Assembly (NCBI GenBank): GCA_902561765.1
Contig: CACEQR010000004.1
Location: 1-64,000 of the forward strand
Length of the DNA: 64,000 nucleotides
DNA from: an uncultured Pelagibacteraceae bacterium
GTDB lineage: Bacteria > Pseudomonadota > Alphaproteobacteria > Pelagibacterales > Pelagibacteraceae
Direction: 5' to 3'
Below are positions 58,757 to 63,928 of the stretch, piece after piece (position 1 is the stretch's first letter; each line of letters begins with the position of its first letter). The position numbers and the translations under genes were made by a program. Below the pieces are notes generated by a model. That model searched no databases. It was not told where the DNA came from and worked only from the letters and a program-made list of their open reading frames with translations.

Positions 58757-58984
58757 TTAACTAGGGTTTTCTCTGAGAAAATTAATATAACTTACTACTT
58801 CATCAAATTTTTCATCCTCAATATCTTTATAACTTGCATTAAATTTACTTTTTACACAAATTGCAACATGAGCATAAGGGTTTCGTCCTTTTGAGTGATT
58901 AGGATGATCTGGAAGTTGTCCTTGTAAATAATCGCCAGCTTCCTGTATCATTTTCCACAGTTTGCTTGCGTTTTCTTTGTTCAA
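58757..58984 (-). CDS. Hypothetical protein (75 aa) with ORF6C-like C-terminus
   Basis: The 75-residue frame starts at TTG (58984). Its C-terminal AHVAICVKSKFNASYKDIEDEKF resembles the ORF6C domain of phage antirepressor-type proteins, which are often small mobile-region genes; this similarity is by eye. Its first 20 codons and about 40 bases of upstream sequence are repeated as a truncated copy at 63448-63546. A promoter-proximal GTTCTAG repeat lies 18-50 bases upstream. Confidence 0.55.
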   Translation of the reverse strand: MNKENASKLWKMIQEAGDYLQGQLPDHPNHSKGRNPYAHVAICVKSKFNASYKDIEDEKFDEVVSYINFLRENPS

Positions 58985-59023
58985 ACTACTTCAATCCTTG
59001 TTTTATCTCAAAAAGTTCTAGTT
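58924..59023. repeat. Direct repeat, left copy (about 100 bp)
   Basis: The first 60 bases (58924-58983) match 63448-63507 at 56 of 60 positions, and similarity goes on to the GTTCTAG motif at 59014-59021. It covers the 5' end of the 75-residue gene and its upstream region. The right copy lies 4.5 kb away in the same orientation, enclosing the helicase region. Confidence 0.85.
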
Positions 59024-59034
59024 AAAGTTCTAGT
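59002..59034 (-). repeat. Repeated promoter-proximal motif, copy 1
   Basis: TTTATCTCAAAAAGTTCTAG is followed by a second GTTCTAG 12 bases after the first (GTTCTAG-TTAAA-GTTCTAG). It lies between the divergent 75-residue gene and the helicase gene. The same 22-base block (to AGTT) occurs at 63299-63320. Confidence 0.75.
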
Positions 59035-59091
59035 ATCTTATAAAATCCTATGTTCAATTTCTACCTATAATTTTGTAGGCTTAAAATTATT

Positions 59092-61947
59092 ATGAGTTTT
59101 AATTTAGAAGATTCTGAAATTTCAGAAATTAATTTTAACAGCGATAAATTAGAAATAATAACAGAGAAAGAAACAAGAGCATTTGATCTTTCCTCAATAA
59201 AGGATCTCGAAATAACTGAACTTGACCAAGAAGACTCAACTGGAATTTTTACAACAATTGGAACGATAGCAGGTTTTGCAGCTGGAGATTTTACAGGAGC
59301 AATTGGCGGTGGCTTCAGTGGTTGGTTGGCATCTAAAATATTTAGCAAAAAAAAAATATTTTTTATGACTTTCATTTTCAATAACAATGAAAAAATCTCA
59401 TTTACAACCAAAGAGAATCATAAAGACATGTTCTATGATAGAATTAGAGAATACTTTAATGAATATTTTTCTAAAAAAATTAAAGAAAATAATTCATTAT
59501 CTAAAAAGTGGGAAAACAATTTTAAAGAGAAAACAAAAGATAAAAAATATATTTCATTTTCTGACATATTTTCTGGAATAAATATTTTGATACATGATAC
59601 TTGTGAAGCTCAAATGAACAACTCATCATTGCTAAATAGTAGCAATTTAAATAAGCTTTATAACTATTTTTTAAAATTTAAAAAAATAAATCTCGAAAGA
59701 AAAAAACATAATCAAAATTTTATTAATAAAAATTTAGATGATTCAAATTTAAAAGGTCTAATATTATCACAAAAGAAAGCAGTTTTAACAGATGATGATA
59801 GTACTTTAATTAATGCAGGAGCTGGATCTGGAAAAACAAAAACTATTTTACATAAATTATCATACTTGATTGATAATAATATATGTGATCCAGAGGAAAT
59901 TTTAGTATTGGCATACAATAGAAATGTAAAAGAAGAATTAGTTGAACGAATTAAATCAGTTAGAAATCAAAAAATAAAAAATAAGCTAGTAGAAGTTGCT
60001 GAAAATAATGTTCACACTTTTCATGGTTATGGAATGAAACAATTAAGAAATAGACAAGTTGCAGAATTTACAAAAAAGGTATCTGATTTTGAGAGCGAAT
60101 TAAGAATTAAGAAGGGCAAAGAGATAGATATAATTATAAATGAACTTTATAAAGAAAAGAGTTTTAAAGATGATCTATTAACTTATTTCTCGGAGTATTT
60201 TTATACTTATAAAGATTATTTTACTGATATAGAAAATTTTGATGACTATGTAAAATACATCAGAAATATTGGGCAAATTACTCTAAGCGGTGATGCAATG
60301 CGAAGTTATGAAGAAGTTGAAATAGCCAACTATTTATTCATTAATGGAATAAAATTTGAGTACGAAAAAGAGTATGATGGTCACTATTTATACGAAAGTG
60401 ATGAAGCAGATTTTTCTGTTAAAGATAAAAATCATTTAAAAATTAAAGATGACAAAAAATATCATCCTGATTTTTATTTGACAGACTATAAAATATATTT
60501 AGAGCATTTTGCATTGAATAAAAACAATGAAGCTCCAAGCTTTTTTAAAAATCCATATGGCTATTACAATCAATATTTGGAAAAAATAAAAGTTCATAAA
60601 AATAATAAAACAAAACTAATCACAACATTTAGTTGGGAAAAATCTGAAGGCAAATTATTAAAGAATTTAGAAAAAAAATTAAAAAAACATAATGTAAAAT
60701 TTAAAAAAATTAAAGATGACGATTTACTTAAAATATTTAAATCCTCTGGCAAACTCAGCAGATTTACTGAATTAGTAAGTACTTTTATGTCTCATTATAA
60801 ATCAAATGAATTAAATGAAAAAAAAGTTAAGGATAAAATTTTAACGATAATTGGAGATAACAACAAAAGAAGATGTTTGGTATTTTTAAACTTATTTATA
60901 AAAATTTTTAATAAATATCAGGCTGATTTAAAAAAAGATTACTCGATTGATTTTGATGACATGATCATCGAAGGTAGAAAAGAACTTCAAACACAAAATT
61001 TGAAATATATAATTGTTGATGAATTTCAAGATATATCGCAAGCAAGAGCAAAGTTTTTGAGAAAAATACAAGAAATAAATCAAGCCAAACTTTATTGTGT
61101 AGGAGACGATTGGCAAGCAATTAATAAATTTAGTGGGGGTGATGTAACTATATTTACATTGGATTTTAAAAAATTATTCGGTCACTATGAAAGAGTAGAT
61201 ATTGATACAACATTTAGGTATGGCAATCTAATAAATAACATTTCCTCACAATTTATCCAAAAAAATCCATCTCAGTTAGAAAAAAAAGTCTCTCCATTTA
61301 GAGATGTAAAAGGAAGCTCTATTAACATTTATGAAAGAAATGTATTTTCGGAGACAATGAATAAGATAACAAAAAAAAATAAAAATATTTTTATTTTAGG
61401 TAGGTATAACTTAGATAAGTATGACAATACTATAAGAAAACGTTTTTATAAAAGCAATATAACTACTAAATATGAAATTAATAAGTTTACAAAAAATAAA
61501 TCTCTAGATGTAAGTTATAAAACTATACATGCTGCAAAAGGTCTTGAAGCTGATGTTGTTTGTTTAGTAAATATGTTTCCTGGAATATTAGGGTTTCCAA
61601 GTCAAATGGAAAATGATGAGATATTGGCTTTAGTATTGCCAAACCCCGAAATGTATCAGAACGCAGAGGAAAGACGTTTGATGTATGTTGCAATGACTAG
61701 AGCCAAGAAAGAAGTTCATTTATTTAGTGGAAATGGCTTTTATTCCTCTGAATTTGTTAAAGAAATAAAAAATGAATTTAGATCTATTAACCTAATTGGT
61801 TCAGATGATGAGAGAGAAGATACTGGAAGAATATGTCCAACACATAAAGTTAAACTACAAAAAAGAAAAGGTTATAGAGGTCCTTTTTATGGATGCCCAA
61901 AATATTTTAGTTCAGAAAAGTGTCGATATACTGAAGATGCATCTTAA
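59092..61947 (+). CDS. Helicase IV-like SF1A protein with nuclease-like insert and C-terminal zinc finger
   Basis: The 951-residue protein has an N-terminal domain with a short glycine-zipper stretch (AGFAAGDFTGAIGGGFSGWLA, near residues 60-80), then UvrD-type helicase motifs: Walker A GAGSGKT at about 243-249, motif II VDEFQD at about 642-647, motif V IHAAKGLEADVV and motif VI RRLMYVAMTRAKKE. Between, EVEIANYLF, YHPDFYL and IYLEHF (residues 408-470) look like a PD-(D/E)xK-type fold. A topoisomerase-like Cys4 zinc finger (CPTHK...YGCPKY...KCRY) ends the protein. Role in repair or defence is inference. Confidence 0.85.
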   Translation: MSFNLEDSEISEINFNSDKLEIITEKETRAFDLSSIKDLEITELDQEDSTGIFTTIGTIAGFAAGDFTGAIGGGFSGWLASKIFSKKKIFFMTFIFNNNEKISFTTKENHKDMFYDRIREYFNEYFSKKIKENNSLSKKWENNFKEKTKDKKYISFSDIFSGINILIHDTCEAQMNNSSLLNSSNLNKLYNYFLKFKKINLERKKHNQNFINKNLDDSNLKGLILSQKKAVLTDDDSTLINAGAGSGKTKTILHKLSYLIDNNICDPEEILVLAYNRNVKEELVERIKSVRNQKIKNKLVEVAENNVHTFHGYGMKQLRNRQVAEFTKKVSDFESELRIKKGKEIDIIINELYKEKSFKDDLLTYFSEYFYTYKDYFTDIENFDDYVKYIRNIGQITLSGDAMRSYEEVEIANYLFINGIKFEYEKEYDGHYLYESDEADFSVKDKNHLKIKDDKKYHPDFYLTDYKIYLEHFALNKNNEAPSFFKNPYGYYNQYLEKIKVHKNNKTKLITTFSWEKSEGKLLKNLEKKLKKHNVKFKKIKDDDLLKIFKSSGKLSRFTELVSTFMSHYKSNELNEKKVKDKILTIIGDNNKRRCLVFLNLFIKIFNKYQADLKKDYSIDFDDMIIEGRKELQTQNLKYIIVDEFQDISQARAKFLRKIQEINQAKLYCVGDDWQAINKFSGGDVTIFTLDFKKLFGHYERVDIDTTFRYGNLINNISSQFIQKNPSQLEKKVSPFRDVKGSSINIYERNVFSETMNKITKKNKNIFILGRYNLDKYDNTIRKRFYKSNITTKYEINKFTKNKSLDVSYKTIHAAKGLEADVVCLVNMFPGILGFPSQMENDEILALVLPNPEMYQNAEERRLMYVAMTRAKKEVHLFSGNGFYSSEFVKEIKNEFRSINLIGSDDEREDTGRICPTHKVKLQKRKGYRGPFYGCPKYFSSEKCRYTEDAS

Positions 61948-61972
61948 ACTTAGTTAGAAAATTAATCTTTAA

Positions 61973-62401
61973 TTATTGATAAACAAATATACTTAAAATT
62001 ATAATAATAATAATAGCTATAACTAAAGGGTTGGCAAATATATTGTCACTTAGCGCCCAGCGAAAAGTTGGATCCTCTTTTAATTTATCTCTTATTTCTT
62101 TTTCACTCAGATATTCACCTTTTTTTAAGTTCTTTAAATTTTTAATTTCATCAATTTCATTTTGAAAATTTTCATTATCTAAATTTTTATCTTCAAAATT
62201 TGGCTCAATTTCACTATCTAAACTTATTTCGCTATAAGTATCATTCTTATTTCTCTTTTTTTCTTTTTTCTGTATTGTTTTTTTTTTAGAACATTTATGT
62301 GGATTGTCAGTAGCAACATCAAAAGCAACCCATTGTTGATGGGGCATTTGTCTTATGCTTATTCTCTCACCACATTTATTGCATGGTCTTATAGAGGCCA
62401 T
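61973..62401 (-). CDS. Zinc-ribbon protein with C-terminal membrane anchor (142 aa)
   Basis: The N-terminus has CNKCGE and a later HKCSK, giving a CxxC...HxC zinc-binding layout near residues 7-37. A long charged linker rich in Lys, Glu and Asn follows, and the C-terminus is a single hydrophobic helix (about residues 125-141). This predicts a tail-anchored protein with a cytoplasmic zinc ribbon. No family was recognised. It is the last of a minus-strand group that converges on the helicase gene 25 bases away. Confidence 0.6.
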   Translation of the reverse strand: MASIRPCNKCGERISIRQMPHQQWVAFDVATDNPHKCSKKKTIQKKEKKRNKNDTYSEISLDSEIEPNFEDKNLDNENFQNEIDEIKNLKNLKKGEYLSEKEIRDKLKEDPTFRWALSDNIFANPLVIAIIIIIILSIFVYQ

Positions 62402-62403
62402 AT

Positions 62404-62613
62404 TTAATTATGATTATTAAATCTATCTCTAGTTTGTTGGTTTATATTATTTATATAAACTCTTATCTTTTCCTCTTCAGAAACATATTTTGCTTCTTTA
62501 ATCTTCTCATTAATTCTATTTTCTTCAAATCTTTTTTTATAAGTATAATATATAGGGAAAATAACTGATAAGCTTATAACTATTACTGAAAATATTAATG
62601 GCAAACTTATCAT
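62404..62613 (-). CDS. Small single-span membrane protein (69 aa)
   Basis: The 69-residue product has an N-terminal hydrophobic helix (about residues 3-24) followed by a highly charged, probably coiled-coil segment rich in Glu, Lys and Arg. No family is recognised. Its ATG overlaps the stop of a tiny upstream frame (TAATG) and its stop lies 2 bases before the next gene, so it belongs to the four-gene minus-strand group. Confidence 0.5.
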   Translation of the reverse strand: MISLPLIFSVIVISLSVIFPIYYTYKKRFEENRINEKIKEAKYVSEEEKIRVYINNINQQTRDRFNNHN

Positions 62614-62678
62614 TAATTAGAAAGATACAATCCAACTCCTAAAGCCACAAGCTCAATTATTATTATTGTTTCAAGCAT
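62613..62678 (-). CDS. Possible 21-residue membrane peptide
   Basis: A 21-codon frame MLETIIIIELVALGVGLYLS begins inside the end of the 196-residue gene (ATG overlaps its last codons) and stops on the next gene's start (TAATG). The product would be almost purely hydrophobic. Overlaps on both sides are what one expects of a coupled small gene, but such a short frame in AT-rich DNA could arise by chance. Confidence 0.35.
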   Translation of the reverse strand: MLETIIIIELVALGVGLYLSN

Positions 62679-63261
62679 TTTTGTATGTCAACAATCTTAA
62701 AGAAATAAATTCTCTTCTTGTCATTTCCTTTTTCAATTTTGGAATTTTTAACCTTAATTTTCTTAAGAATTTTGTGTATTCAAATAATCTTAATATACCC
62801 ACAGTTTTTCTTATTGTTGCTGCTATACAAATACCAATTAAGAAACTAATTAAAGATGTTCCCATAGCTTTGGTTGTTATTGCAAAAACTCCTACACCAA
62901 CAGTACCTTTAAATATACCCCATTTTAAATTTCTTAGTTCAATTTTATTTTTTCTTTTATTGTATCTATAGGCTAAAACTACTATTGCAGTAATAGTACC
63001 TAAGGGATCTCCATGTACTGAACTTGATGCTAGTACACCAGACGCAATCTCAGCAAATTCTTCTTTATTTTTTTTGTTCCAAGAAAAAAAAATTGCAAGA
63101 GGTCCAATAGATGATGATAATATCTCGTTGTATTCAATATGTTTTAAATCTTCAATCCATTGCTCAGGTATGTCTTTTAGTCCTTTTGTAATTTCATAAG
63201 ATTTTGTGTAGCTGGAATGTAATATGCTAGATAAATATGGACTTAATTTATTAAAGTTCAT
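62671..63261 (-). CDS. Hypothetical membrane-associated protein (196 aa)
   Basis: The N-terminal half is polar (KGLKDIPEQWIEDLKHIEY), the middle has a hydrophobic region (about residues 75-97 and 115-148, including GTVGVGVFAI and GTSLISFLIGICIA), and the C-terminus is basic. Two or three membrane segments are likely. No family is recognised. It is the first gene of the minus-strand group and has the repeated GTTCTAG motif 38 bases before its start. Confidence 0.55.
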   Translation of the reverse strand: MNFNKLSPYLSSILHSSYTKSYEITKGLKDIPEQWIEDLKHIEYNEILSSSIGPLAIFFSWNKKNKEEFAEIASGVLASSSVHGDPLGTITAIVVLAYRYNKRKNKIELRNLKWGIFKGTVGVGVFAITTKAMGTSLISFLIGICIAATIRKTVGILRLFEYTKFLRKLRLKIPKLKKEMTRREFISLRLLTYKNA

Positions 63262-63298
63262 TATTAATAAATATTTATAAATTTTGACTACTTTATGA

Positions 63299-63332
63299 TT
63301 TATCTCAAAAAGTTCTAGTTCTGGTTCTAGTT
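63299..63332 (-). repeat. Repeated promoter-proximal motif, copy 2
   Basis: The first 22 bases are identical to 59002-59023, followed by CTG and a second GTTCTAG. The 19 bases 63312-63330 recur exactly at 63902-63920. It lies 38 bases upstream of the 196-residue gene start. Confidence 0.8.
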
Positions 63333-63398
63333 TTTTGCTTAATTTGATGAATCTTTATGCGATTTATTTTTAATGAAAGTTAAATAGTCCGCATAACT

Positions 63399-63434
63399 AG
63401 TGTGAAGTAGTGTGAGGTAGTGTGAGGTAGTGTG
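63399..63434. repeat. Ten-base tandem repeat
   Basis: TGTGAAGTAG, TGTGAGGTAG, TGTGAGGTAG and a partial TGTG follow each other from 63401. CTAGTG (63397-63402) and CACTAG (63438-63443) frame the array as an inverted repeat. The array directly precedes the truncated gene copy. Confidence 0.8.
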
Positions 63435-63438
63435 TACC

Positions 63439-63507
63439 ACTAGCCCCGTAAATAATCGCCAGCTTCCTGAATAATTTTCCAGAGTTTACTTGCGTTTTCT
63501 TTGTTCA
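63439..63507 (-). pseudogene. Truncated second copy of the 75-residue gene
   Basis: On the minus strand from the GTG at 63505-63507 it reads the same first residues (MNKENASKLWK then IIQEAGDYL) and stops at TAG after 22 codons, where the similarity ends. The 60-base match to 58924-58983 has 4 mismatches. It is a remnant left by duplication or recombination. Confidence 0.7.
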
Positions 63508-63546
63508 CACCTTCACTTTTTTTGTTTTACATCAAAAGTTCTAGTT
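63448..63546. repeat. Direct repeat, right copy (about 100 bp)
   Basis: It pairs with 58924-59023 in the same orientation. The coding part is 93 percent identical over 60 bases; the upstream part is more divergent but keeps TTGTTTTA and the CAAAAGTTCTAGTT block. Confidence 0.85.
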
Positions 63547-63557
63547 TAGGAACTAGT
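63527..63557 (-). repeat. Repeated promoter-proximal motif, copy 3 (diverged)
   Basis: TTTACATCAAAAGTTCTAGTTTAGGAACTAGTT keeps the core, but the second half-site is inverted (GAACTAG), making a partly palindromic element 20 bases upstream of the truncated gene. Confidence 0.6.
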
Positions 63558-63814
63558 TACATTATTTTCTCAAGTTTCCAAGCTTCATCTTTAGCATTAA
63601 ACTTTGCATTCCAGTCTTTAGATCTTTGATCTTCAAATAACGCATAAAATTTTTCTTCATCAGTGACATTTGCAATAAAAATCATTTTACCCTCACGAAT
63701 GTGTGCCCATTCAAATGATGACGTGCATTTTGCAAGGTCATCTTTAAACATACTGTATAATTCATCTGCATCTTTTTTAGTTCCTTGATATGTTGTTGTT
63801 CCAACAAAGTTCAT
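63557..63814 (-). CDS. Hypothetical protein (85 aa)
   Basis: The 85-residue soluble protein has an even mix of helix and strand, with EWAHIREGKMIFIANVTDEEKFYALFEDQR in the middle, which looks like an alpha/beta barrel (dimeric ferredoxin-like) fold. No family is recognised. A TTTCCT-type purine site on the minus strand (AGGAAAAAC) lies just before its ATG, supporting the start. A copy of the GTTCTAG motif lies 88 bases upstream. Confidence 0.6.
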   Translation of the reverse strand: MNFVGTTTYQGTKKDADELYSMFKDDLAKCTSSFEWAHIREGKMIFIANVTDEEKFYALFEDQRSKDWNAKFNAKDEAWKLEKIM

Positions 63815-63901
63815 AGTTTTTCCTTTCTTAAATTAATTAAGCTAATATAGGCTCAACAAATTTCCAATCAATAAAATTTTTCAACAAATTTACCTCACCT
63901 T

Positions 63902-63920
63902 GTTCTAGTTCTGGTTCTAG
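63902..63920 (-). repeat. Repeated promoter-proximal motif, copy 4
   Basis: GTTCTAGTTCTGGTTCTAG is identical over 19 bases to 63312-63330. It lies upstream of the 85-residue gene and just after the end of the edge gene. Confidence 0.75.
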
Positions 63921-63928
63921 ATTGACCT

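Follow-up and report, generated by a model that had tools for sequence, protein, structure and literature searches.

A small protein gene of SAR11 bacteria as the probable docking site of a 4.5 kb cargo cassette related to phage-satellite-like elements

How did the 5' end of a 75-residue protein gene come to stand twice in one genome, about 4.5 kb apart, with a helicase gene and several small genes in between? The question is raised by the window analyzed here, which covers bases 1-64,000 of a contig 113,690 bases long. The genome comprises 1.21 Mb in 36 contigs, is 84% complete, and its named relatives are SAR11 bacteria. An initial annotation of the window described an accessory segment between imperfect direct repeats and proposed an insertion or a duplication with later loss. 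Comparison with related genomes makes it very probable that positions 58924-63510 are a 4.5 kb cargo cassette docked site-specifically in the 75-residue gene, the most likely enzyme being the integrase of a satellite-like element.

The direct repeat is 63 nt long (58924-58986 and 63448-63510), with an identity of 92%, the same orientation and a spacing of 4524 bp. Weaker similarity extends through a 36-41 nt motif (59001-59036 and 63524-63559), and the repeats of about 100 bp given by the initial annotation are therefore a fair description. Copy 1 is formed by the initial 21 codons of the intact 75-residue gene (58757-58984, minus strand). Copy 2 retains the start codon and about 20 codons before an in-frame TAG ends it, leaving a 22-codon open reading frame (ORF) (63440-63508, minus strand). 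That the 5' end of the gene recurs in truncated form about 4.5 kb away in the same orientation was confirmed by this comparison. A search of the 84% complete genome with the 63-mer returned two matches at E<=0.001, which are the two repeats, and no third copy. When up to 2 mismatches are allowed, the motif GTTCTAGTTNNGGTTCTAG has four occurrences genome-wide, every one within 59015-63920 and in a single orientation. The same pattern read backwards served as a control and gave two genome matches. With up to 3 mismatches four occurrences were found in the window compared to 0.09 expected.

It had been predicted that strains without the segment would have one intact copy of the gene at the junction, and two were found (L062 and L064), each with a single intact 75-residue gene. 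When the window flanks were joined at the repeat they aligned across the junction to L062 over 2803 bp (90.2%, five gap openings) and to L064 over 2145 bp (89.9%, three gap openings). L061, L063 and L060 differed upstream of the start codon in the same comparison and were not collinear across it. Conservation of the segment in all relatives, named beforehand as the contrary outcome, does not hold, as the helicase has relatives in only two of the 299 other same-genus genomes at E<=1e-50 (G061, 84%, partial at a contig end; G242, 40%). These collinear empty sites and the single end codon that recurs among relatives favor insertion over gene duplication. The interpretation of 58924-63510 as an insertion, apparently by site-specific integration rather than gene duplication, is well supported at the level of sequence comparison.

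Truncated copies of the gene recur in related genomes. Thirty partial copies were found in 24 of 151 same-genus genomes, ending at query residues 20-32, and some loci carry two or three. The partial copy lies upstream of the full copy on the same strand in all 19 genomes with both on one contig. Detailed comparison covered 41 loci, 20 of them picked for holding partial copies, and the 41 contained 26 truncated copies. In every one of the 26 the match to the gene lasts through GATTAT[T/C]T (codon 20) and stops there; what follows in 25 is an element end of type RNGGNNNTAGNGG..CACACTAC or one of its variants. Three of four truncated copies from further loci were of the same kind (L189, L190 and L191). 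Truncated and full copies were also present together in the single-contig genomes G309, G311 and G300, with the junction DNA of G311 inspected. The truncated junction was also sought in 84,980 species genomes, which gave 109 stretches; the 80 listed were all assigned to Pelagibacteraceae, Pelagibacterales or Ca. Pelagibacter. Contig C3:4-165 of genome G057 starts at codon 22 of the 75-residue gene, as if the assembly had broken at the repeated core. The in-frame TAG stands at about codon 23 in most truncated copies, in the same place as in the window (63440-63442), and may be part of the recombination site or the end of a short peptide.

The core is flanked by paired arms. The P arm consists of tandem 8-nt words with a period of 11-12 followed by GAGATAAAACAA, about 52 nt before the intact start codon. 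In the window it is the tandem pair ACTAGAAC...ACTAGAAC with TTTTTGAGATAAAACAA (59001-59036, minus strand), next to the gene-side core or attR (58924-58986, minus strand). The P' arm is a second word pair, located about 112 nt past the core at the opposite end of the insert. In the window this arm (63298-63333, minus strand) lies 112 nt beyond the core and matches the P-arm word at 30 of 34 nt. The displaced core or attL is the truncated 5' end of the gene (63448-63510, minus strand), adjoined by an element end with a TAG-TGGTACACACTACC-type start and 10-bp tandem repeats (63397-63443, minus strand).

An arm pair was recognized in 56 of 65 elements, with 21 second words among them. Where both arms were recognized, the P and P' words agreed at 7 or 8 of 8 positions in 49 of 52 elements compared to 26% of between-element pairs. 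Across 27 elements (24 cassettes and three free elements) the mean P/P' match was 27.2 of 34 compared to 21.8, a value reached in 0 of 100,000 permutations, and the 24 cassettes alone also gave 0 of 100,000. A further 38 cassettes, taken from named loci after removal of nine already used, gave 28.4 compared to 22.3 (0 of 100,000). Two clusters of related cassettes span both sets and descent is not fully independent, so the test was repeated with one cassette per cluster (18 cassettes); the match was 26.1 compared to 21.8 (0 of 100,000). L215 and L279 have 227 and 443 bp between starts, little beyond a bare attachment site.

The upstream sides of full copies are of two kinds. A P-arm profile was trained on 31 other elements and used to score 89 full copies. 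Forty-three scored at least 9.5, a group that includes seven near-identical relatives, 41 scored -6.7 or lower and five lay between. One spurious full-length match (L142 at 286) was excluded from these counts and from the constraint counts. The 18 loci that have a truncated copy alongside a full one were all in the high group, the lowest at 15.3. The coding ends differ also. The intact gene of L044, L045 and L050 begins with MTEENRRKLW, MSPEKSQKLW and MDEENRRKLW, respectively, and the truncated copy in L044 and L045 retains the common MNKENASKLW. This is expected if the insert brought the new 5' end. The locus has a replaced 5' end with the old one displaced as a direct repeat, as in elements of the dusA/prfC type.

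The same site was found on free elements. A scan of IMG/VR for the core returned 51 stretches, of which three have the start of the 75-residue gene before the core and 48 do not. Two of the three are elements of ~9 kb (L104 and L113) in which the site is followed directly by the gene for an integrase of 575-581 amino acids. The third core match (L125), a contig of the viral collection, carries an intact 75-residue gene and a primase-like ORF, named by its likeness to L113. A search with the integrase returned a third free element (L129). L104, L113 and L129 have exact terminal redundancies of 29, 98 and 81 nt, respectively, which is suggestive of a circle or a concatemer. In cellular data an integrase adjoins the site on an 8,864-base single-amplified-genome contig (L203/L321), and a broken integrase stands beside an intact 75-residue gene in G159 (L192).

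The L104 integrase matched phrog_1 of PHROGs at 1e-22. Tyrosine recombinases carry the residue motif R..K/H-x-x-R..H..Y, and R391, K511, R514, H538 and Y548 are invariant in the four integrase sequences compared. By family profile and catalytic residues this integrase is a tyrosine recombinase. L113 also encodes a primase with AEP and DUF5906 domains, a RusA-like resolvase and a terminase-small-subunit-like protein (1.7e-5). No capsid or tail protein was named by PHROGs among the scanned proteins (one from L104, eight from L113). With an integrase, replication genes and no capsid or tail gene among those scanned, the free elements have, by gene content, the anatomy of phage satellites. The P' arm lies inside the first integrase codons in the four intact elements (frames by inspection). 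The P' arm of the window in frame gives KLEPELELFEINHK, which resembles the N-terminus of the free elements' integrases (frame by inspection). Inside one cassette (L320:3012-3278), about 35 integrase 5' codons continue in frame into the C-terminal portion of a DUF520 protein. The host gene beside the dock is also a member of DUF520, presumably YajQ. The fusion suggests that cassettes can arise by loss of the integrase body and capture of host DNA.

Distant sister integrases (about 30% identity) were found in G120 and G168 (L193:6972-8747 and L194:7544-9315). Each is immediately preceded by a copy of the initial 39 nt of tRNA-Leu(UAA), and the intact tRNA-Leu lies some 8 kb off; the same integrase family seems to target a tRNA elsewhere. 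Two candidate links to a helper were rejected. A conserved 26-mer upstream of the P arm, sought as a signal common to free elements and helper phages, was confined within the viral collection to the three free elements, and the exact 21-mer of the element-end repeat, sought in a common virus, was present only in L104.

These features can be joined in one mechanism. The cassette carries a full attachment site comprising an arm pair, the core (gene start and about 20 codons), the element end and the second arm pair, and recombination within the shared core would insert it. The resident gene would gain a new promoter side and first helix, and the old 5' end would be left truncated at the far side. 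The site restored at the intact gene could be used repeatedly, which would give stacked cassettes. The enzyme is most likely the tyrosine-recombinase integrase of ~575 amino acids from the satellite-like elements of ~9 kb that have the site beside their integrase gene. It would bind the arm words, recombine the core and act in trans on cassettes that retain only the site. Spread of the cassettes may occur in phage particles.

Several results weigh against this interpretation. The integrase is rare, with four intact genes (L104, L113, L129 and L203), one broken gene and one remnant of ~35 codons. An integrase inside the cassettes was looked for and rejected: none of the 62 compared carries one of its own, as elements of the dusA/prfC type do, and only the four intact elements have it. 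No free-element protein was found in any of the 62 at E<=1e-5. The genome of the window, 84% complete, has no integrase of this type and contains two other tyrosine recombinases. The enzyme would then come from outside, or be another one; absence from the genome, though it is incomplete, would also be in keeping with an enzyme that arrives with a visiting satellite. The L104, L113 and L203 integrases match PF00589 (Phage_integrase) at 8.6e-6 to 5.9e-5, just under the gathering cut-off. The structure prediction was unusable, with a predicted local distance difference test (pLDDT) score of 35, and a profile search found no solved relative. Both arms were recognized in only 52 of 65 elements, and several cassettes have no clear P' arm. 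An element's own P' arm was the best or tied best match in only 13 of 27 and 15 of 38 cases, because elements share words. The relatedness clustering was crude, single linkage placing 44 of 62 cassettes in one group. The P-arm scores of L178, L167 and L159 may come from the coding C-terminus of an upstream ORF. The outermost L051 copy lacks the element end, as does the L188 copy (G149), which departs before GATTATTT. DNA constraint at codons 2-21 is modest (synonymous difference 0.26 compared to 0.38, p = 0.016), and searches of 22 well-assembled genomes found no copy of the gene in 7.

The alternative that survives best, while still improbable, is that a host Xer-type recombinase of ~325 amino acids integrates the cassettes and the satellites merely share the site. 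Phage_integrase matches are indeed frequent in the 24 genomes with partial copies, 17 having one and three having more, with no listed match in four. The site, however, adjoins a dedicated integrase in four elements, with the P' arm in its first codons, and the Xer core site differs in layout from the paired arms. Slightly less probable is a replacement island swapped through ordinary homologous recombination at the repeated 5' ends, which would need no site-specific enzyme. The 63-nt core is long enough for this, and islands of this kind are described for aquatic bacteria in the available part of one source (PMC4033161). Homologous exchange is opposed by the identical end codon in 26 of 26 copies, the common element ends, the matched arm words and the site beside an integrase on free elements.

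A tandem gene duplication, with decay of the second copy and chance gain of genes in between, is very improbable: it would give two copies in the same orientation and fails to explain one end codon in many lineages, the empty sites, the changed N-termini and a promoter side that predicts occupancy. An integron, that is a cassette array with attC sites run by IntI, would account for recombinase-free cargo cassettes stacked at one dock and is as improbable as duplication, given that the site here consists of a coding 5' end flanked by matched arm pairs and that the integrase matches a phage integrase family.

The cargo of the cassettes is varied. The 62 cassettes (24 + 38) range from 0.2 to 6.8 kb with a median of 1.9 kb. 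They contain 121 ORFs of at least 80 amino acids in 96 families, 79 of them singletons, and 89 of the 121 lie on the strand of the 75-residue gene. Twenty of the 40 ORFs of at least 140 amino acids in the first set were scanned with Pfam, and 10 of these with PADLOC. The scanned cargo included an EcoRI-type methylase with a GmrSD/HNH nuclease, a type IIG enzyme, a Z1-domain helicase, TRAP transporter parts with an amidohydrolase, DHDPS, BipA, a short-chain dehydrogenase, hydrolases and a trypsin-like protease, and some ORFs were without a family. Cassettes of L038, L039, L048, L049 and L054 have genes that open with a nearly identical signal-peptide-like sequence (MKKLLGI...), frequently some 250 nt past the truncated start.

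In the window cassette the largest gene encodes a 951-residue UvrD/helicase IV-like helicase of superfamily 1 (59092-61947, plus strand). It matched Pfam UvrD-helicase at 8e-34 and NCBIfam helD at 303 bits, under the cut-off of 543 for that family. PADLOC matches were mainly to generic UvrD/GajB, and a defense-system name was rejected. Three smaller proteins follow on the minus strand, of 142 residues (61973-62401, C-terminal hydrophobic segment), 69 residues (62404-62613, N-terminal hydrophobic segment) and 196 residues (62671-63261, hydrophobic segments). The helicase IV-like gene named between the repeats by the initial annotation was borne out by its family matches; the small membrane proteins named there show hydrophobic stretches by eye and matched no family above cut-off. 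These four ORFs include a helicase and no integrase or primase, so the cassette lacks a satellite's own integration and replication genes. The attachment core was absent from the compared stretches around the helicase relatives of G061 and G242. The G061 relative lies near L326:90-160, which looks like the 5' half of a tRNA-Ser; ARAGORN found no intact tRNA on the compared DNA.

A second, older cassette seems to stand beyond the first. The stretch 63511-63923, between the truncated copy and the DUF520 gene, looks like a cassette with an ORF of 85 amino acids (63557-63814, minus strand), which is common to 7 of the 41 loci compared. A decayed P arm (ACTAGTTC...ACTAGAAC, 63524-63559, minus strand) precedes it, and L062 and L064, which are without the 4.5 kb insert, have almost this sequence ahead of their intact gene. 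A probable P' arm, a ACTAGAAC pair, was placed by motif matches at 63888-63923 (minus strand). No outer core copy of this cassette was recognized in the repeat search of the genome or in the junctions inspected. The accessory segment had been drawn as 58924-63546; a bounded stretch is present, and its end has to be moved outward, as accessory DNA reaches further through this probable older cassette.

The docking gene itself (attB; 58757-58984, minus strand) now has about 20 first codons and a promoter side that would be cassette-derived. The 75-residue protein was found in 92 of the 151 same-genus genomes and in 183 of 297 genomes of the order Pelagibacterales, in 9 of 11 genera. An AlphaFold2 model had a mean pLDDT of 90 and placed helix 1 at residues 3-20. 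The junction is therefore at the end of helix 1 and exchange swaps just that helix. No homologue was found among 50,697 phage records at E<=0.01 and the fold had no PDB match at E<=0.001. A viral fold library gave weak matches to ORF6C, Bro-N and repressor domains (probability up to 0.99, E of at least 0.15). PHROGs matches were of the ORF6C/antirepressor type and also weak (E 0.01-0.07), in line with the viral folds. These matches are suggestive of kinship to ORF6C/antirepressor-type phage domains.

More tentatively, the locus may belong to a lineage-wide, integron-like SAR11 dock run by satellite integrases. Site-only cassettes would be moved in trans, with about 20 arm-word specificity classes and with the integrase N-terminus and the site changing together. 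In our view the gain of single genes by streamlined SAR11 genomes is poorly explained. A dock with exact ends makes gains and losses countable per population, and the mobile gene pool can be listed from junction reads. It also allows one to ask if restriction systems, transporters and enzymes reach very abundant ocean cells by way of phage satellites. The matched arm words are a natural data set for integrase-site recognition.

Among known systems, the SXT/R391 integrative and conjugative elements in prfC give their target gene a new promoter and 5' codons. The SAR11 element appears to do the same, unlike them in that they are large conjugative elements. Marine phage satellites were reportedly described as VEIMEs by Eppley and colleagues in 2022. 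The ~9 kb free elements resemble the marine satellites VEIMEs and PICMIs, as covered in the available parts of two sources (PMC10803314, PMC11389934), in having an integrase and a primase, no recognized structural genes and terminal redundancy. They differ in that their site is in a 75-residue SAR11 gene and is shared by many integrase-free cargo cassettes. Farrugia et al. (2015, PMC4482086) describe the dusA-associated islands, which are tyrosine-recombinase islands that replace the 5' end of a protein gene. The SAR11 cassettes are likewise placed in the 5' end of a protein gene, which island sequence replaces. In the part of that paper available the integrase is the only universal feature, whereas all 62 SAR11 cassettes are without one, and the host gene, the stacking and the element-specific arm words also differ.

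Tycheposons carry cargo in streamlined marine bacteria; by the available account (PMC10872708) they have a tyrosine recombinase, a tRNA at their borders and a length of 4-200 kb. The SAR11 elements are similar in host type, cargo and recombinase; the cassettes differ in docking in a protein gene and in their size of 0.2-6.8 kb. No tRNA was found in the window or in L007, which sets the locus apart from the tRNA integration of tycheposons. Integron cassettes and CALINs, as far as the source extends (PMC11389934), are similar in being recombinase-free at one dock, with mobilization in trans probable here, and differ in type of site and recombinase; no membership is claimed. A metagenome study from 2007 had no attC sites at SAR11 hypervariable regions in the part available (PMC2217521). 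No earlier account of this dock was recognized in the literature searched, which was available in part, and the VEIME and tycheposon papers may mention some of it. Compared to these systems, the new features are the target gene, the dominance of small, stacked, integrase-free cassettes and the element-specific arm words.

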